Positions 2,675-42,196 are shown, counted from the first letter of the stretch. The stretch is DNA of 62,879 nt from an uncultured Gammaproteobacteria bacterium (GCA_929200535.1 CAKMZV010000008.1:1-62879), one strand, 5' to 3'. Notes: generated from the sequence alone by a model not told the origin. Program-made: numbers and translations.

Positions 2675-4618
2675 TTAAATCTCTAAATCAACTTTGTCCA
2701 TCGCTTTAGTGCAGCAGGCTAAAACGTAGCCTTGGTCAATTTCTTGTTGGCTAATACCGCCACTATGTACCATATGAGTTTCGCCACTGTTGACTTTGAC
2801 TCTGCAGGTGCCACAAACACCAACAGAGCAGGCACTGGGTATGGCGATGTTAGCACGTTTGGCAGCAGTTAGTAAGGTTTCTATTTGAGTGGCTTCAATT
2901 TCTTTTTTGGACTTAGCAAAGCTGATAAATGTTTTTTTATCTGAAATCGTGGTGCTGTAGTCTTGGGGTTGTTCGTTAGCTTCAATGGATGAAAATTGTT
3001 CTTCGTGATATTTGTTCATATCGTATCCAGAGTCAATTAGGGCATCTCGTACCGCTTGCATAAAAGGGGCAGGACCACAGCAATAAACGGCTCTGTCCAT
3101 ATAGTCGCTTGCCGCTAAACCAAGTATCAGTTTGTTAAAGCGTCCACGATAGCCAGTCCATAGATTTTGTGCGTCTTCTTCACATACCCAGGTTACTCTA
3201 ATATCTTCACTTCGATAGGCAATGTTTTCCAGTTCTTTTTTAAATAGAATATCTTGTGGTGTTTGCACACAGCTGATAAAGTTAATGTCCATATCACTGC
3301 CGTGATCGTACATCCAACGAGTCATTGAAATCATTGGGGTAATCCCAGAGCCGGCTGAGATAAATAAGTATTTTTCAGCAGGTTTGTCAAAAAAAGAGAA
3401 GTGCCCTGTCGGTCCAAATGCTCTTAGTCGAGAGCCAACAGTTATATTTTCAAACATCCAACGGGTGCCAAAACTTTCCGCTTGTGCTTTTGCCGTGACT
3501 GAAATGGAGAGAGGGCGAGAAGGGCTTGAGGATAGGGTGTAAGTTCTTAGTGTAGGTTCTTCTGTGGCAGTGGGGAGTTCTAAAGTAATAAATTGACCAG
3601 GCTTATAGGTGAATAGGCGTGGTGGGTCGCTTTGAAAGGTAAAGGTTTTTACATTGGTGCTTTCATCTATTATCATTGTGCAAATTAAGTCGTCTATTTC
3701 TGAAGACCAAATATGACTGTCTGCAATCGCCAAGCGAATATTTTTTGCTTCAGTTAGATCACTTGGTTTATCTTCAAATTTTGCTATTTGTTCTATAAGC
3801 TCTTGGTTTTCTAATTTCTTTTCTTTATTGCTAAAGAGTTTATCTTCGTTAAAGAAAGTCGATGAGTCATAGTCAATCGATAGAGCATTTAATAACTCTT
3901 TGGCAACTTCTTCATTAACAGAGCCATATTTGGCAAAAATTTTCACCGTTAGTCTTATCCTGTCAAGGGCTATTGGGTTAGACATTAGTACCACTTCTAT
4001 GTCAGAGCAATCAAGAAGGTAACAGTTTGTTGCTAATAAGGTTTGTGTGTTTATATCTAATAAAGGTAGGTCGTTTAAAATCCTTAGTCGCCTATTCAAA
4101 GGCTCACTTTCTGACGGTTGGTCTTCTAAAACGTTAGTAATGACAAGTGATGAGTGGATACTTTCTTCAGTAAAGTTAGAGCCTAAAGGTACTAATGTCT
4201 CATCTTGTGATAGATTGATAAAAATATGCCCGTTATCAATGCTTAAAGGGTATTGCTTTAGTTTAAAGTCTTTACAATTAATTTCTTCCATCATCGAATG
4301 GGCATATTTTAATTGTCCGCTTAGGTCATAGGTCCATTGATGATAGGGGCAAACCAAATTGCTGCCGTGTCCCCGTTCTGTTTGGCAAATTTTTGAACCT
4401 CGATGACGACAAGTATTGCTTAAAGCAATAATCTCATCATTATCATCTTTTAATATGATAATAGGGTAGTCAATTATTTGGATTGTGAAAAAATCGCCAT
4501 TATTGTTGAGTTCATCACTGTGCCCAACGTAAATCCATTGGTTGTACCATCTTTTTATGTTTTCGATTTTGTTTTGGTTAGAAAAACGTATCGACTTTTT
4601 AGACTGTTGATTAGCCAT
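2675..4618 (-). CDS. Rieske domain fused to FAD/NAD(P)H reductase and plant-type ferredoxin
   Basis: This 647-residue protein should move electrons from NAD(P)H to an oxygenase. Residues 25-140 are a Rieske [2Fe-2S] domain with all ligands: C70-x-H72 (CRHRG) and C90-x-x-H93 (CPYHQW). Residues about 145-285 look like a decayed oxygenase catalytic domain: DRIRLTVK resembles the C-terminal core of GbcA-type oxygenases, but the His/His/Asp iron site is absent. Residues about 300-540 are a ferredoxin-reductase module (RTYTLSS flavin motif at 358-364, GSGITPM at 423, CCGP at 513). Residues about 565-647 are a plant-type ferredoxin with C597, C602, C605 and C635. The reductase part resembles GbcB, the glycine betaine monooxygenase reductase, which normally has no Rieske domain. 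The gene lies 27 bp downstream of an oxygenase lacking its own Rieske ligands, so the two probably form one enzyme. The substrate (glycine betaine or another methylated amine) is inferred. Confidence 0.85.
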   Translation of the reverse strand: MANQQSKKSIRFSNQNKIENIKRWYNQWIYVGHSDELNNNGDFFTIQIIDYPIIILKDDNDEIIALSNTCRHRGSKICQTERGHGSNLVCPYHQWTYDLSGQLKYAHSMMEEINCKDFKLKQYPLSIDNGHIFINLSQDETLVPLGSNFTEESIHSSLVITNVLEDQPSESEPLNRRLRILNDLPLLDINTQTLLATNCYLLDCSDIEVVLMSNPIALDRIRLTVKIFAKYGSVNEEVAKELLNALSIDYDSSTFFNEDKLFSNKEKKLENQELIEQIAKFEDKPSDLTEAKNIRLAIADSHIWSSEIDDLICTMIIDESTNVKTFTFQSDPPRLFTYKPGQFITLELPTATEEPTLRTYTLSSSPSRPLSISVTAKAQAESFGTRWMFENITVGSRLRAFGPTGHFSFFDKPAEKYLFISAGSGITPMISMTRWMYDHGSDMDINFISCVQTPQDILFKKELENIAYRSEDIRVTWVCEEDAQNLWTGYRGRFNKLILGLAASDYMDRAVYCCGPAPFMQAVRDALIDSGYDMNKYHEEQFSSIEANEQPQDYSTTISDKKTFISFAKSKKEIEATQIETLLTAAKRANIAIPSACSVGVCGTCRVKVNSGETHMVHSGGISQQEIDQGYVLACCTKAMDKVDLEI

Positions 4619-4645
4619 AATTTAGTTTGGAATTGTGGGAGTTAC

Positions 4646-5803
4646 TTATTTAGTAGGTAGCCGTTTTTGTAAGGTGTTGGAGTACCAATCAACAAATTGA
4701 GCTACTCCAGTTTCATATTCGGCTGAGTAGGGACCTGGTAAATAATCTGGAGAATTAATGCCCAGTTGGTTTTGCTCAACTAAATGTCGGTCTTGCAGAT
4801 TGGTTTGGTCCCAGACATATCTTAGTCTTTCTATGGTGTAATCTTTTCCTTCAATGGCATCTTTATTTATCATCCATTTAGTGGTTAGTAGTGTCTTTTG
4901 TGCAGTAAGAGGAATGAGGCGAAAAGAGATTACTTGATCACCAAGAAAGTGATTCCAAGAGCTTGGATAATGAAAATATAATAATGATCCAATATCAGGG
5001 TCTTCAGCGTGACAAACACGTTTTTTGACTGCTGCTTTTCCATCCATTGTAAAGCTGGTAAAGCCATTGAGTAAAGGTACTCGGGTAACTCGATAAGTTC
5101 CATCTTCAGACATAAGAAAACGACTGGGCATATTCATTGCCTCACATTTTTCCCAGCAGTCTCGTAATATTTTTGGTGTTTTTTCTGAGGGAATACCAGT
5201 AACACTAGGGTCTTCTGGAAAGGTAATAATTAGCTCTGGATGGTTGCTTGAACAATGATAACATTCTCGATTATTTTCCATAACCAATTTCCAGTTGCCT
5301 TGCTCAATAATGGTAGAGCTTGAGGCAATTTTAAGTTTGTCCAGATTGTAAGGGGCTATATAATCTGAAACGTCTTTTTCCAATGGGGCAATATCATCGG
5401 GTTTTTTGGCGAGAGAAATAAACAAGTAGTAGCACACATTTTTACAATGAATCGGCGTTAGTTTTTGTGTGACTCTCTTGGGTAATTTAACTGAGCCGTT
5501 GATTTGTTCTTTTAAGGTATGTTTAATAACGGAATTTTTAATATTTCGTAAATGAAAGGCTTGAATGTCTTCTTCTTTATCAGACATTCTGATAACAACA
5601 ATAGGATATTCTCCAAGCGTAAAGGTGAAGTAATCCCCCACCTTAGGTACTTCACACGGATGCCCTGCAAATACCCAAGATTTATACCAAATGTGCTTCA
5701 TATCACTGGCGAAAAATTTCTCATCTTTATAAAAAGGGCGAGCCAAACTGTAGCCTTTTTTTTGTTCCTTAAGTATATTTAAAAGTGAACCCTTTGTTGT
5801 CAT
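4646..5803 (-). CDS. GbcA-like oxygenase catalytic subunit lacking Rieske ligands
   Basis: This 385-residue protein resembles the alpha subunit of glycine betaine monooxygenase (GbcA) and related quaternary-amine Rieske oxygenases. The N-terminal part keeps the family framework (W-x-x-A-G-H-x-C-E-x-P at 43-53, PIVVIR at 67-72). The CxH...CxxH cluster motif is absent: after QAFHL (81-85) about 20 residues are missing, and the next recognisable strand is PIHCKNVCYYLFISL (117-131). The catalytic domain is intact: E176, H183 and H188 in the ENNRECYHCSSNH stretch, and D338 in NLQD, match the bridging acidic residue and the 2-His-1-carboxylate iron site. The frame is continuous, so this is not a sequencing frameshift. 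The downstream partner supplies a Rieske domain. Transcription of the pair presumably starts in the AT-rich stretch 5804-6054. Confidence 0.85.
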   Translation of the reverse strand: MTTKGSLLNILKEQKKGYSLARPFYKDEKFFASDMKHIWYKSWVFAGHPCEVPKVGDYFTFTLGEYPIVVIRMSDKEEDIQAFHLRNIKNSVIKHTLKEQINGSVKLPKRVTQKLTPIHCKNVCYYLFISLAKKPDDIAPLEKDVSDYIAPYNLDKLKIASSSTIIEQGNWKLVMENNRECYHCSSNHPELIITFPEDPSVTGIPSEKTPKILRDCWEKCEAMNMPSRFLMSEDGTYRVTRVPLLNGFTSFTMDGKAAVKKRVCHAEDPDIGSLLYFHYPSSWNHFLGDQVISFRLIPLTAQKTLLTTKWMINKDAIEGKDYTIERLRYVWDQTNLQDRHLVEQNQLGINSPDYLPGPYSAEYETGVAQFVDWYSNTLQKRLPTK

Positions 5804-6054
5804 GATGTTGTCTGTGTATAGGTTGAAAAATATTTTTACAATCTGAATAATTGTAGTTGTTAATGTTGTGTTTTTGTGAGTTAAAATATAAAAATTTTTT
5901 GCTTAAAATAAGTTACCAATTGTAGAGTTATTAAACGACTCTTTTGCATAAAAATGTAAAAAGGTGGAAAATTAACTATATCAAGATTAAATAAATGAAA
6001 TTAAAGCTAAAAATTTAGGGCATTTTTATCGCTTTAAAAATTAATTTTGTGAGT

Positions 6055-6213
6055 GAGACCTTTGCACAAAAGATATGACAAGTAAAAAAGCAAAAAATTG
6101 CCCTGATTTTCGTTGTGAAACTTGCGAAGACGGACGTATTGGCTGCGTTTCACGCCTCAATCAGAACAATTTTTTATCTTTTTTCTTTTGCCATACTTTT
6201 ATGCAAAGGTCTC
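6055..6213 (+). mobile_element. MITE family A, copy 1 (159 bp)
   Basis: A non-coding element with inverted ends GAGACCTTTGCAC... and ...TGCAAAGGTCTC. Near-identical full copies lie at 41809 and 56629, and shrunken remnants at 15120 and 36352. The interior contains GCGAAGACGGACGTATTGG, also present in MITE family B at 36838. The ends resemble those of IS5-family elements from memory; this is not verified. Only a short non-coding ORF-like stretch is present, so it would need a transposase in trans. Confidence 0.75.
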
Positions 6214-6251
6214 ATATGGTATAAAAAATTAGAAAAATTAGAAAAATTAAA

Positions 6252-15119: not shown

Positions 15120-15152
15120 GAGACCTTGTCATATCTTTTGTGCAAAGGTCTC
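15120..15152 (-). mobile_element. MITE family A remnant (internal deletion)
   Basis: GAGAC joins directly to CTTGTCATATCTTTTGTGC and AAAGGTCTC, the reverse complement of the left end of the full element at 6055. Only about 33 bp remain. It lies 4 bp after the dnaE stop and is palindromic at its ends. Confidence 0.65.
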
Positions 15153-37001: not shown

Positions 37002-37814
37002 TTAGAGATTGGCAGAATAGCTTGCTAATTTTTTCAGTGCGCCAGCATAGTTGCCAAAGGCGTAGCAATGCAAACCATTTGGCTTGATATTGGCTTGTTT
37101 CATTTCTTGAATGAGTGAGTCGCTATCATAGGTGCTGAGCATTTTATAGACATTGTGTTTTTTAACAAAACTCATTGCATTTTTAACACCTGAAATAGCG
37201 GTGAGTTTGAGTAATTGAGGTATTTTGCAAGGAGCCACAAAGCTGATAGCAAAATTGATATGCTGATTGTCAAATACAGTATTTTGTTGGATTATCGGTT
37301 GTGCCTCTAAGCAAATTTGTGAAAATCCGTTACAGTGTATCCCTTGTTCATTTGCCCATTTTATTTTTTCATTGAGAATGCTTATTCCTTCCTCTGCCTC
37401 AATATGTGGATGCCCTTCAGGAAAGACGGCAAAAGCAATTTTATCTACAGGGGCGGCATTATTATTTTCCCATTGTTCTTTGAGAAATTGAAGAACACTT
37501 TCAAAACGTTGTGGTTTATTATTATCACCGCCAAGTAGAAGTACCGATTTTGTTTGTGTATTAAGAAATTGATTGATATGATCTAAGTTGTCTTCGGTGT
37601 TAAGATTTCGCACTCCAAGGTGTGGCATTACGGTAAAGCCATTTTCAATAAGTTCGTTACTGGCATTAATAACTGTGGTATAGGGTTTGCCATTCACGTG
37701 GGGTATAAGAATTGTTAAATCATTTTTATTGAGTGAATCTTTAAAGTCGCTTTTTTGATAGGCGTTTATGAAGGCATCAACCTGGGATGCTAATACTTCG
37801 ATAGATAGTTGCAT
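37002..37814 (-). CDS. Methylenetetrahydrofolate reductase-like protein
   Basis: A 270-residue TIM-barrel protein of the MetF type. FTVMPHLGVRNLN, VLLLGGDNNKP, FAVFPEGHP, PCKIPQLLKLTAISGVKNAMSF and LHCYAFGN follow the order of MTHFR strands. It lacks some classical MetF residues, as do the methyl-THF-handling paralogues near DMSP or methylamine genes. It is last in an operon with dmdA; its start overlaps the stop of the upstream ligase by 1 bp (TAATG). It probably oxidises the 5-methyl-THF that DmdA forms, feeding one-carbon metabolism (inference from context). Confidence 0.78.
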   Translation of the reverse strand: MQLSIEVLASQVDAFINAYQKSDFKDSLNKNDLTILIPHVNGKPYTTVINASNELIENGFTVMPHLGVRNLNTEDNLDHINQFLNTQTKSVLLLGGDNNKPQRFESVLQFLKEQWENNNAAPVDKIAFAVFPEGHPHIEAEEGISILNEKIKWANEQGIHCNGFSQICLEAQPIIQQNTVFDNQHINFAISFVAPCKIPQLLKLTAISGVKNAMSFVKKHNVYKMLSTYDSDSLIQEMKQANIKPNGLHCYAFGNYAGALKKLASYSANL

Positions 37815-39454
37815 TATTTAATAGAGGATCTAAGTTTGAATTTTTGAATTTTACCGGTGGCTGTTTTGGGAAGTTCTTCAAATTTAACAGCTTTAGGTAT
37901 TTTGAAAGAGGATAGATGTTGGCGACAAAAATCTTGAATTTCTTGTAATGATGGCGGTGCGTTTTCAAAATTTTTTTTCAACTCAATAAAGGCAGCTGGA
38001 ATTTCACCCCATTTATCATCTTCTTGAGCAACCACAGCGGCGTATGCCACGGCAGGATGCTTGTATAGAATGCCTTCAACTTCCACTGAAGAGATATTCT
38101 CTCCGCCAGAGATGATAATATCTTTAAGGCGATCTTTAACTTTTAGGTAGCTATCTTCTTGCCAAACTGCAATATCTTCACTGTGAAACCATCCGCCATT
38201 AAATGCCTCTTGGGTTGCTTTTTTATTTTTATAGTAGCCTTTCATCACAGTGTTTCCCCGAATAACAATTTCACCGTTTTGCTCTTGTTGTGAGGGCGAG
38301 TAGGGGATTAGATTTCCATTTTTATCCATCAGCCCAATCTCTTCATTCATTGGGAAAGACATTCCTTGCCAACTTTGAATTTCTGCTTGTTCATTGGTAG
38401 TTAGCTTATCCCATTTTTGACGCCATAAGCAATGGCTAATATGTCCATAGGTTTCAGTGAGTCCATAGACTTGCATTACTTGGAAATTCATTGCTGCCAT
38501 ACTGGCAAGAATAGGAGCTGGTGGCGGTGCGCCAGCAGTCATTACTTTAACTTGGTAATCAAGGTGTTTTATTTTTATTTTTTCATTCTCGTCGGCATTC
38601 ACTAACATACCAAGAATAATAGGAGCACCACCAAAATGAGTGATTTTATGTTGAGCAATATGGTTAAAAATGAGTTCGGTGCTGATATTACGTACGCAGA
38701 CAAAGGTGCCTCCAAGAAGCGCTATTGTCCAAATATATCCCCAACCATTACAGTGAAATAAGGGAACGGTATAAAGATATTTTGGGTGCATAGGCATTTG
38801 CCAAGCCGCCACGCTCCCCATTGACATCAGATAGCTCCCTCGATGATGATAAACGACGCCTTTAGGTTTTCCTGAGGTACCAGAAGTGTAGTTTAGTGCA
38901 ATGGCTTGCCATTCATCTTCGGGCATTTGCCATAAATAATCCGATTCTCCTTGGGCAATAAAGGTTTCATATTCCATATCGCCTAAGTGAGAGCTTATAT
39001 TTTCGTGTAGGTCATCGATCCGTATGACTGTGATGGAGAGATTATTTTGTTCAATGGCATTGGTTGCCATTTCAATAAATTGTGCATCAACGAGAAGTAG
39101 CTTGCAGTCGGAATGTTGCAGTATATACCCGATGGTATTATTATCTAAACGCATATTGATGGTGTTCAATACGGCACCAGCCATAGCGACACCATAATGT
39201 GCTTCAATAAGTGCTGGAGTATTTGGAGATAGTGCGGAAACGGTATCGCCTATTTTAATACCTTGTTTATGTAGGGCGTGTGCTAATTGACAGCTACGTT
39301 GGTAGGTTTGTTTCCAAGTAAATTTTTGCTTATGATATATGACTGAAGTCATATCAGAAAAGTAAGTCGCCGCTCTTTTGATAAAGGAGATTGGCGATAA
39401 GGCAATATGATTTGCAGGGGTTTTATCTAATTCTTGGTAGTGAATATGTGACAT
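37814..39454 (-). CDS. dmdB: Acyl-CoA ligase, likely methylmercaptopropionate-CoA ligase
   Basis: A 546-residue AMP-forming ligase. The P-loop-like YTSGTSGKPKGV is at 189-200; GLTETYGH (A5), GWFHSEDIAV (A7), KDIIISGGENISSVEVE (A8) and the catalytic Lys in TATGKIQKF near the C terminus are all present. The size and opening resemble DmdB-type ligases, which activate 3-methylmercaptopropionate, the product of DMSP demethylation. Lying 14 bp after dmdA supports this; by sequence alone it could serve another medium-chain acid. Confidence 0.82.
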   Translation of the reverse strand: MSHIHYQELDKTPANHIALSPISFIKRAATYFSDMTSVIYHKQKFTWKQTYQRSCQLAHALHKQGIKIGDTVSALSPNTPALIEAHYGVAMAGAVLNTINMRLDNNTIGYILQHSDCKLLLVDAQFIEMATNAIEQNNLSITVIRIDDLHENISSHLGDMEYETFIAQGESDYLWQMPEDEWQAIALNYTSGTSGKPKGVVYHHRGSYLMSMGSVAAWQMPMHPKYLYTVPLFHCNGWGYIWTIALLGGTFVCVRNISTELIFNHIAQHKITHFGGAPIILGMLVNADENEKIKIKHLDYQVKVMTAGAPPPAPILASMAAMNFQVMQVYGLTETYGHISHCLWRQKWDKLTTNEQAEIQSWQGMSFPMNEEIGLMDKNGNLIPYSPSQQEQNGEIVIRGNTVMKGYYKNKKATQEAFNGGWFHSEDIAVWQEDSYLKVKDRLKDIIISGGENISSVEVEGILYKHPAVAYAAVVAQEDDKWGEIPAAFIELKKNFENAPPSLQEIQDFCRQHLSSFKIPKAVKFEELPKTATGKIQKFKLRSSIK

Positions 39455-39468
39455 ATTGCGTACTATTT

Positions 39469-40599
39469 CTAATTAAATGATTTTTCACAAACAGTAGATT
39501 GGCGTTCTCCGTCTGGGCAGTGTACAGTCAATGTTGTACCCGCTTGCCAATAGGGTTGATGAATCATAGCCAGCGCGACATTGGTATTAAAGTCAGGTGA
39601 CCAAATCGCAGAGCTTACTTGCCCAACAACTTTGTCTTCCTTTGTTATCACCCAAGGATCACGACAAGCAGGGACAGCACCTCCATCAATGGAGAGACTT
39701 TTAATTTGTTGTTGGAATTTATCTTCTCTACGTTTTTTTAGGGCAGTACCGCCAATACATTCAGCAAAAATGGTTTCATCACAAAAATGTTGTAAGCCAC
39801 ATTCATCAGGAGTATTATCAGAGGTCATATCATTGCCATAGGAAAGTAGCCCACTTTCGACACGCTCAATATAGTTGGGTCCACCAGCACGAATATCAAA
39901 TTTTTTGCCTGCTTCCATTAAGGCATCCCAAAGTTGTTCGCCGATATTTCCTTCTTTTTTATCACTCTGTACATAAATTTCAAAACCGCCTTGTTTGGAA
40001 TAACCCGAACGGGAAATTAAAAAGGATTCGTTTTTAAACTTAAAAAATTTTGCTGAAAAAAAAGGCATTTTATTAATCTCACTGCCAAAGATATTTTCCA
40101 TTACAGCAAAGGATTTTGGTCCTTGTACGGCAAGAGGGTAAATCGGAGGTTCATAAACTTTGACATCTAACTTTAAAGCAACAGCAATCCCCTTTATCCA
40201 AAAAAGTAAGTCAGAATCAGCAATGGAAATCCAGTAATGCGTATCGGAAAACTTGATACATACTGGGTCATTAAGCATTCCCCCAGTATCATCAACGATA
40301 GGGATATACATACAACGGTCAGTGCGTTGATTAGATAAATTACGAGGCGTTATTTTTTGTACTAAAGTGGCAGCCTCTTTGCCCTCTATAGCAATTTGTC
40401 TTTCGCAACTAACATCCCATAGTTGGACGTTTTTTTTCAGATGTTGGCAATCACTGACAACATCTTTTAAGACCGTCGGTAAAAGCATACGATTATAAAC
40501 CGTATAGGCTTGAATGCCAGCTTCTGCAACTTTGCGACTAAAAGGCGTGGAACGTAGGCGCCGAGTAATTGATAATAAAGGAGCAGGGGCTTTATTCAT
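39469..40599 (-). CDS. dmdA: DMSP demethylase (GcvT family)
   Basis: A 376-residue tetrahydrofolate-dependent aminomethyltransferase fold. It transfers a methyl group from dimethylsulfoniopropionate to THF, giving 3-methylmercaptopropionate. The start SITRRLRSTPFSRKVAEAG and TVYNRMLLPT, WDVSCERQIAI, TPRNL, YIPIVDDTGGMLNDPV, RSGYSKQGGFEIYV and SYGNDMTSDNTPDECGL match bacterial DmdA sequences as I remember them, rather than GcvT or dimethylglycine dehydrogenases. Neighbours fit the pathway: acyl-CoA dehydrogenase, CoA ligase and an MTHFR-like gene in one operon. It overlaps the upstream dehydrogenase by 4 bp (ATGA). Confidence 0.88.
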   Translation of the reverse strand: MNKAPAPLLSITRRLRSTPFSRKVAEAGIQAYTVYNRMLLPTVLKDVVSDCQHLKKNVQLWDVSCERQIAIEGKEAATLVQKITPRNLSNQRTDRCMYIPIVDDTGGMLNDPVCIKFSDTHYWISIADSDLLFWIKGIAVALKLDVKVYEPPIYPLAVQGPKSFAVMENIFGSEINKMPFFSAKFFKFKNESFLISRSGYSKQGGFEIYVQSDKKEGNIGEQLWDALMEAGKKFDIRAGGPNYIERVESGLLSYGNDMTSDNTPDECGLQHFCDETIFAECIGGTALKKRREDKFQQQIKSLSIDGGAVPACRDPWVITKEDKVVGQVSSAIWSPDFNTNVALAMIHQPYWQAGTTLTVHCPDGERQSTVCEKSFN

Positions 40600-41768
40600 T
40601 TTTCACCAAAACCTTTGGGTATTGTAATTGGCTCTAAGGACTCCGCTCTTTTTTGCAAAGCACGCCCAATGACTACACGCTGAATTTCAGTTGTGCCATC
40701 GACAATCTTTAACATTTGAGCTAAACGTGATAAGCGATCCAAACCATACTCTTTGAGTAACCCCATACCACCAAGCACTTGAGTGCAGACATTGGCAGCT
40801 TTTAATGCCGCATCTGGGACAAAGAGTTTAGCTTTAGCCGCAAGCAAACTTCCCTCAGGAGTGCCTAAGGCATTGGCAGCTTTTTTATAGATTAGGCGCG
40901 AAAGTTCTAAGTTGGTATCAACCTCTCCAAGCATCCATTGAATGCCATCTAATTGCAGATTAGTTTTAGAAAACATTTTGCGATCTCGTGCGTACCTTAA
41001 TGCCGTATCAAGGGCAGTTTGCATCAGTCCACAACACCCTGAGGCAATCGACACTCGTGCAATATCAATTGCCATTAAGGATCCTTGAAGTCCCATACCG
41101 ACAGGCAAAATAATATTCTCCTTTGGGATAGTAACATTCTCAATATACATTTCAGACATAGGTAAAAAACTATAGGATGGCGTTTGATACATCGGTCCAA
41201 AACTAAGTCCTTTGCTGTTCTTGGGTATGGCAAACATCGCCATATCCTTATGCCCTTTTTGTTCACTGGTTTTGGCGACAACCAAATAAACATCCGCAAC
41301 ATCAGCAAGAGATACCCATGCTTTAGCGCCATTAAGCGTGTACGTGCCATCTGAATTTTCTTTGGCAGTAGTGTACATATTGACAGGATCTGAGCCTGAT
41401 TGAGGTTCGGTCAATGCAAAATTTGCTAACTTCTTGCCAGCGATAAGATCGCGTGCCCACTCCCCCTTAAATTCATCCGTCGCATAACCACAAATCGCAT
41501 AAGAGCAAATATTATGCATTGATAGCGCAAAGGCATAAGCACCATCTGCCAAACCTAATTGCTCATAAACTTGAATCCCCTCGCCAAGAGACAAGCCTTG
41601 ACCGCCCAGTTCTTCAGGGCAATACAATCCCAATAAACCCACTTCTCCAGCCTTTTGAGAGGCATCAAGCGGCCATTTTACTTGCTCAACCCATTGATCA
41701 ACATTTGGTTTGATGACGTTCATAGCATGTTGATTTGCTACTTCAAGAATAGAGTTTAAATTTGACAT
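40596..41768 (-). CDS. Acyl-CoA dehydrogenase in DMSP operon
   Basis: A 390-residue FAD-dependent acyl-CoA dehydrogenase. FALTEPQSGSDP (flavin-binding), YTLNGAKAWVSLADVAD, the helical C-terminal domain and IVDGTTEIQRVVIG are present. An Asp stands where the medium-chain enzymes have the catalytic Glu (YEGT), so the base may lie elsewhere, as in LCAD/IVD types. The known methylmercaptopropionyl-CoA dehydrogenase DmdC is about 590 residues, so this smaller enzyme is not orthologous to it. By position, first in the operon, it may do that step or handle a later intermediate. Confidence 0.8.
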   Translation of the reverse strand: MSNLNSILEVANQHAMNVIKPNVDQWVEQVKWPLDASQKAGEVGLLGLYCPEELGGQGLSLGEGIQVYEQLGLADGAYAFALSMHNICSYAICGYATDEFKGEWARDLIAGKKLANFALTEPQSGSDPVNMYTTAKENSDGTYTLNGAKAWVSLADVADVYLVVAKTSEQKGHKDMAMFAIPKNSKGLSFGPMYQTPSYSFLPMSEMYIENVTIPKENIILPVGMGLQGSLMAIDIARVSIASGCCGLMQTALDTALRYARDRKMFSKTNLQLDGIQWMLGEVDTNLELSRLIYKKAANALGTPEGSLLAAKAKLFVPDAALKAANVCTQVLGGMGLLKEYGLDRLSRLAQMLKIVDGTTEIQRVVIGRALQKRAESLEPITIPKGFGEK

Positions 41769-41808
41769 AAAATGATGATAAATAAATTGGCTTAGGTTTA
41801 AAAAGTAT

Positions 41809-41967
41809 GAGACCTTTGCATAAAAGATATGACAAGTAAAAAAGCAAAAAATTGCCCTGATTTTCGTTGTGAAACTTGCGAAGACGGACGTATTGGCTAC
41901 GTTTCACGCCTCAATCAGAACAATTTTTTATCTTTTTTCTTTTGTCATACTTTCATGCAAAGGTCTC
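41809..41967 (+). mobile_element. MITE family A, copy 2 (159 bp)
   Basis: Nearly identical to 6055-6213 (a few substitutions, same length), with ends GAGACCTTTGCATAAAAG and CATGCAAAGGTCTC. It lies just upstream of the DMSP operon, while a remnant of the same element lies at its far side (36352). 41968-42196 has no gene, only a diverged leader repeat (ACTATGTTACAATTGAGGG). Confidence 0.8.
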
Positions 41968-42196
41968 AATATTTATTTTGGGTTGATAACAATTTTCCTT
42001 ATTTACAACAAATAAATCAATAGGTTAGGGGATTGAAATGATAAAAAAATAGTGATAATCCAACAGTTGCACTCTGCTCATTCTTACGCTCCTGCGCGGG
42101 AACGGCAAAAACCCAAGAGACCTAAGAAGCGAAATATTACTATGTTACAATTGAGGGTTTAATCAATAGTTAGTATAGTAGCTTATTCTAAATCCT

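Follow-up and report, generated by a model that had tools for sequence, protein, structure and literature searches.

Can two adjacent genes, each with half of the anatomy of a Rieske oxygenase (RO), together encode one working enzyme? The question is raised by a locus from an uncultured Gammaproteobacteria bacterium (GCA_929200535.1, CAKMZV010000008.1:1-62879; this whole stretch of 62,879 nucleotides is called the window below). Electrons in ROs pass between subunits, and therefore the two metal sites could in principle be carried by separate chains. The distance from Rieske centre to iron in CntA is 44 A inside one subunit but 12.2 A between neighbouring subunits, where E205 forms the bridge. 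A sequence-only reading of the locus had proposed that reciprocal loss of the two sites in neighbouring genes is mechanistically sensible, and the action in trans of the CntA sites across the subunit interface bears this out.

Both open reading frames (ORFs) lie exactly where that reading had placed them, and comprise the following features.

4646..5803, minus strand: gene 1, 385 aa, GbcA-type quaternary-ammonium RO without a Rieske cluster
5552..5803, minus strand: gene 1 residues 1-84, conserved remainder of the Rieske base domain (its N-terminal half)
5414..5551, minus strand: gene 1 residues 85-130, region where the cluster was once bound, with ligand loop 1 deleted and loop 2 substituted
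4649..5413, minus strand: gene 1 residues 131-385, catalytic domain with the mononuclear iron site (E180 bridge; H183, H188, D338; C181/C184)
2675..4618, minus strand: gene 2, 647 aa, fusion of Rieske domain, linker and FAD/NAD-ferredoxin modules
4202..4549, minus strand: gene 2 residues 24-139, GbcA-type Rieske domain (ligands C70, H72, C90, H93)
3719..4201, minus strand: gene 2 residues 140-300, 161-residue linker, possibly a catalytic-domain remnant
2678..3718, minus strand: gene 2 residues 301-647, GbcB-type reductase (FAD, NAD and plant-type 2Fe-2S, C597-x5-C-x2-C..C)

The two ORFs are intact, share the same frame and are spaced by 27 nt. Two in-frame TAA codons lie between them, at the end of gene 1 and ahead of gene 2. 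A single-chain RO carries reductase, Rieske centre and iron on one polypeptide, and what was found here is two ORFs. The earlier description of the enzyme as self-sufficient was too strong, since two polypeptides are still required and stop codons separate the ORFs; according to a 2025 review, self-sufficient ROs have yet to be identified in nature (PMC12445004).

The gene pair is flanked upstream by uraD and downstream by a DUF1566-like ORF, and no GST-like (NdmE) ORF occurs among its neighbours at the locus. Directly downstream, at 285-2645 and on the strand opposite gene 2, there are two ORFs with DUF1566/Lcl-like C-termini, a label assigned by eye from the pattern YWSSSPFA..AVRLVRTSQ. A promoter and terminator scan gave matches that were not above those in shuffled sequences. 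The interval between uraD and gene 1 holds, at 6054-6214, a MITE-like element about 161 bp long whose GAGACCTTTGCA ends are inverted. A second GAGACCTTTGCA end pair, with equal spacing, is found at 41809-41967 (within 41808-41968), and lone ends occur at 15141, 36361 and 56629. In total, the window contains seven matches to these ends, against 0.29 expected.

Anatomy of the two half-enzymes

Gene 1 has a mononuclear iron site and no Rieske ligands, a feature of split ROs. Pfam detects the RO catalytic domain alone (Ring_hydroxyl_A, 107 bits, residues 156-379), and the nearest NCBIfam name is GbcA. An AF2 model of gene 1 alone is predicted with a pLDDT of 89.4 and a pTM of 0.89, and is unconfident at residues 98-105, the former site of the cluster loops. 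The iron ligands named in the sequence-only reading (H183, H188 and D338) are present, but the bridging acidic residue is E180 rather than E176. E180 sits in the motif E-C-Y-H-C, which matches E205-C206..C209 of CntA. Loss of all four Rieske ligands had also been claimed; both cysteines and the first histidine are indeed gone, while the alignment places one histidine on the histidine of CPYH. Gene 1 thus has the Group V feature of a betaine-demethylase-clade catalytic domain with an iron-adjacent cysteine pair (E-C-x-H-C), and departs from the Group V rule that Rieske and iron sites are on one chain.

Gene 2 has the complementary split-RO feature: it adjoins an oxygenase gene and joins a Rieske domain to a reductase of the flavin/NAD/plant-ferredoxin kind. 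Pfam identifies Rieske (69 bits), FAD_binding_6, NAD_binding_1 and Fer2 domains, the modules named in the initial reading, and all their motifs are intact. The nearest NCBIfam names are GbcA for the first 140 residues, where the match is under the equivalog cut-off, and GbcB for the last 350. The Rieske domain aligns with GbcA at an hhalign E of 1e-33, and the reductase shares at most 54% identity with GbcBs. When residues 1-305 were modelled, pLDDT was mostly above 90 in the Rieske domain and the linker was mostly unconfident.

This linker had been described as a decayed catalytic domain, but the comparisons did not bear that out. No match to the RO catalytic domain was obtained by hhalign, by Smith-Waterman pairwise alignment (200 shuffles) or by HMM (1000 shuffles), and with Foldseek on the model included, homology was not established. 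The linker model contains a low-confidence beta-hairpin and helix (strands at 199-229, then a helix to 245; pLDDT 57-75). These three predicted strands and helix (199-245) look like the final strands of the RO catalytic domain, and weak HMM matches of the gene 2 linker and of the NdmD linker land on the same C-terminal hairpin. That the linker might be a catalytic-domain remnant is a guess from these models. Its 161 residues are unexplained, and count as a point against the split-enzyme reading.

Reciprocal conservation and a proposed electron path

Conservation in the two genes was compared with a reference set of 32 GbcA-type sequences, obtained by translating public genomes, in which a column was taken as invariant when at least 97% conserved. 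The catalytic domain has 43 such columns, of which gene 1 keeps 42 and gene 2 none (0/43). The pattern is reversed in the 15 invariant cluster-binding Rieske columns, where gene 1 keeps four, the histidine aligned with that of CPYH among them, and gene 2 all 15. Identity values follow the same partition. In its catalytic domain, gene 1 is on average 47% identical to GbcAs, which are 50% identical to one another, and its N-terminal Rieske base (GbcA positions 18-82) has a mean identity of 43%, compared with 45% among GbcAs. In its former cluster region, however, gene 1 is only 21% identical to GbcAs, whereas GbcAs share 67% among themselves and the cluster region of gene 2 is 62% identical to theirs.

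Cluster loss in gene 1 is not a recent deletion, because loop 2 is substituted rather than merely cut while the iron site is unchanged. The catalytic domain has stayed close to GbcA while the cluster region diverged, and therefore the catalytic site remained under selection for a long time after cluster loss. Such reciprocal conservation favours a single working enzyme made of two proteins. The heteromeric enzyme arising by reciprocal loss that the sequence-only reading had put forward is well supported by the conservation pattern, and by the finding of no other suitable reductase in the genome.

Taken together, gene 1 and gene 2 quite probably form one split Rieske oxygenase, whose Rieske centre would be supplied in trans. 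In the proposed path, NADH would reduce the FAD of gene 2, from which electrons would pass to the plant-type 2Fe-2S centre and onward to the Rieske centre of the same chain. The Rieske domain of gene 2 would dock on gene 1 where the Rieske domain of a neighbouring subunit normally sits. Electrons would then move from this centre through E180 of gene 1 to the iron bound by H183, H188 and D338, where O2 would be activated and a methyl group would leave the substrate as formaldehyde. Two further points count against this reading. The half of the Rieske base domain retained in gene 1 could hinder docking, but NdmC retains the equivalent and yet works. NdmCDE needs a GST-like subunit, and no GST gene adjoins the pair. 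Even so, the well-conserved pair is probably a functional split RO.

Substrate, electron supply and competing readings

The most likely substrate is a quaternary amine, glycine betaine foremost, an assignment held with less confidence than the trans-Rieske mechanism. It is uncertain because the NCBIfam scores fall below both the GbcA and the GbcB equivalog cut-offs: gene 1 reaches 390 bits against a cut-off of 670 (NF058607), and gene 2 reaches 364 bits against 500 (NF058606). Proline betaine (stachydrine) or some other quaternary amine might instead be the substrate of the same split enzyme, a less likely reading that overlaps with the preferred one. The closest folds to gene 1 are 3n0q and the stachydrine demethylase structures 4qur and 3vca; the two demethylase structures score 346 bits each, against 356 for the best structure, a putative RO. 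The sub-threshold GbcA score also favours stachydrine, but is explained in part by the missing Rieske region. Genome content points the other way, as dimethylglycine- and sarcosine-oxidising-type proteins suit glycine betaine. Two SoxA-type proteins and two FAD + GCV_T (dimethylglycine-dehydrogenase-like) proteins were found, together with a TMAO demethylase and one BCCT transporter, a gene content with which demethylation of glycine betaine would be in keeping.

The window also carries a DmdABC-like DMSP demethylation cluster at 37814-41768, in which a DmdA-like GCV_T protein (39469-40599) adjoins an acyl-CoA dehydrogenase and an ORF resembling acyl-CoA ligases. The TMAO demethylase is located outside this cluster, elsewhere in the genome.

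The genome is a 1.97 Mb draft in 50 contigs, scored as 100% complete with 0.1% contamination, and is the sole member of its order in the genome collection compared. Three Rieske domains were found in it: one in gene 2, one in a distant RO encoded on contig C17, and one in a frame of 200 aa on contig C9 that would appear to be a cytochrome bc1 subunit. One GbcB-like protein and one FAD_binding_6 protein were detected, and both are gene 2. Other Fer2 proteins found were a 111-aa ferredoxin-like frame, XdhA (NCBIfam) and one long frame that looks like NuoG. No alternative reductase for gene 1 or for the C17 RO was found in the genome.

The C17 RO (L002:1332-2471) is complete but distant, with 379 aa and 185 bits to the GbcA model, and lies between anmK-like and U32-peptidase-like genes with no dedicated reductase. 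The sole candidate reductase found for it is gene 2. As a spare gbcA, the C17 RO was rejected, since a long branch (3.98) separates its catalytic domain from GbcA. A separate complete gbcA, which would have weakened the case for the pair, is thus absent, the only other complete RO being this distant one.

This arrangement allows for a different electron supply, in which gene 1 would draw on the Rieske centre of the C17 RO in a mixed oligomer, or on peroxide, and gene 2 would merely be the reductase of C17. In its favour, a peroxide shunt is known for CntA (PMC10952381), and the genome yielded no further RO besides C17 and no candidate reductase besides gene 2. Nevertheless, a reductase that served C17 only would need no Rieske domain of its own, and the one in gene 2 is GbcA-type, as the C17 catalytic domain is not. 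Furthermore, gene 1 and gene 2 are adjacent and co-directional, like gbcA and gbcB. This alternative is accordingly considered improbable.

Slightly less credible still is that the locus is a decaying gbcAB operon whose open frames are leftovers without function. The small size of the genome speaks for it, and such loss does occur: a 1.5 Mb genome of the same class contains a lone 207-aa GbcA catalytic-domain remnant (L106:1489-2112), a case of probable true decay. That remnant has lost one iron histidine (NNK for NHP), whereas gene 1 and gene 2 preserve nearly all invariant columns of their respective domains. Under random mutation at 0.05 changes per site, gene 1 stays open in about 3% of runs and gene 2 in about 1%, and the frames are intact over 3.1 kb despite dead regions that have diverged far past the level at which drift would close them.

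An ordinary gbcA misassembled in this single draft assembly of 50 contigs is very improbable, as the replaced cluster region is diverged in-frame coding sequence with no junction of known pieces, gene 2 is a single open frame with a unique linker, and the genome scores well for completeness and contamination.

Descent, rarity and known systems

In alphaproteobacterial loci, gbcB directly follows gbcA in the same direction, and the window pair has the same order. Gene 1 falls in the clade to which the alphaproteobacterial GbcAs belong (support 95). NdmC groups with NdmA and NdmB (support 99), apart from gene 1, and the pairwise similarity between the catalytic domains of gene 1 and NdmC is at the level of shuffled sequences. 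For the Rieske domain of gene 2, a sister relationship to that of NdmD was rejected (AU p 0.0016) and a placement with alphaproteobacterial GbcAs was not (AU p 0.30), while the free tree weakly groups it with gammaproteobacterial GbcAs. Common ancestry with NdmCDE to the exclusion of GbcA is contradicted by the trees for both gene 1 and the gene 2 Rieske domain. Under the proposed origin, an alphaproteobacterial-type gbcA-gbcB operon would have given rise to the pair when a copy of gbcA, or its Rieske part, fused to gbcB; thereafter, the cluster would have disappeared from gene 1 and the iron site from the fused copy.

The pair appears isolated among the genomes searched. From the best 80 relatives listed in a genome-collection scan, 77 were extracted, and all 77 carry C-x-H..C-x2-H. 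The sequence-only reading had noted that Rieske-bearing homologues in close relatives would make this a one-off deletion: relatives at 34-45% identity do keep the motif, but no close relative was found. It had also suggested looking for the same gene pair elsewhere, and no second example came to light. A second Rieske-GbcB fusion was found in none of 369 Gammaproteobacteria-level class genomes, 399 genomes of the phylum and 385 genomes of the class with the closest GbcB match (approximately 1,150 genomes across the phylum in total, some counted twice). Split pairs were likewise absent from viral contigs, and from the matches listed in the genome-collection scan.

Several candidates were discarded. 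Long GbcB frames elsewhere are fused to molybdopterin-oxidoreductase-like or MOSC-like domains, or are chance frames, and have no Rieske domain. One genome has gbcA in two frames, the result of a frameshift with an intact Rieske domain. Two genomes of the same phylum (L173 and L174) carry a GbcB-type reductase at the C-terminus of a molybdopterin-oxidoreductase-like protein, in open frames of 1287-1315 aa.

The pair had been thought to be unlike any described enzyme, but the same split is seen in NdmC/NdmD of caffeine metabolism, and a two-chain RO is also found in Micromonas. In caffeine-degrading bacteria, NdmC, NdmD and NdmE constitute the 7-methylxanthine N7-demethylase (PMC4408171, PMC10380055). 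It was presented as the first RO in nature to carry its Rieske domain on the reductase, and requires NdmE as a GST-like third subunit. In the ndm cluster of the Paraburkholderia caffeinilytica plasmid NZ_CP031468.1, NdmC has no cysteine in residues 1-90, retains D-x2-H-x4-H, and keeps an apparent part of the Rieske N-terminal region. NdmC and gene 1 are therefore alike in lacking Rieske ligands while keeping part of this region. NdmD and gene 2 share the order of Rieske domain, linker (about 150 aa in NdmD), flavin/NAD modules and plant ferredoxin, and in both systems the two genes adjoin. In contrast, the gene 2 reductase is 23% identical to NdmD and about 50% identical to GbcB, the window pair has no adjoining GST gene, and the substrate class differs. 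By sequence, the pair is of NdmC/NdmD architecture, but is not a member of the NdmCDE family by descent. The Rieske-on-reductase split seems to have arisen twice, with the window pair as an independent, convergent case in the quaternary-ammonium branch.

The components themselves resemble those of GbcA/GbcB and stachydrine demethylase (Group V), to which the catalytic domain of gene 1 and the reductase of gene 2 are each up to about 54% identical; the gene 2 Rieske domain is up to about 45% identical to that of GbcA. The difference is that GbcA has both metal sites on one chain and GbcB lacks a Rieske domain, whereas here the Rieske domain is on the GbcB-type chain. CntA/CntB offers a likeness in the route of electrons, from reductase to Rieske centre to bridging glutamate to the iron of the neighbour, and CntA also has the iron-adjacent E-C-x-x-C motif. 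It differs as a complete RO on one chain, with 15% identity to gene 1 over the fold. The chlorophyllide a oxygenase (CAO) of Micromonas is reported to be an RO on two polypeptide chains, but is eukaryotic and has another substrate, and the source cited for it mentions no reductase fusion (PMC9615114).

If the split-enzyme reading is true, a second unrelated split would mark an accessible evolutionary route, and the pair would provide a two-gene, possibly GST-free model for docking and in-trans electron transfer. Natural reductase-Rieske fusions are also useful as engineering templates. NdmD supplies, in addition to NdmC, ROs that have their own Rieske centre. The chances are about even that gene 2 does likewise, as one Rieske-reductase chain for both the cluster-less gene 1 and the C17 RO, in a convergent, GST-free system of the quaternary-ammonium branch and in a genome where no other such reductase was found.
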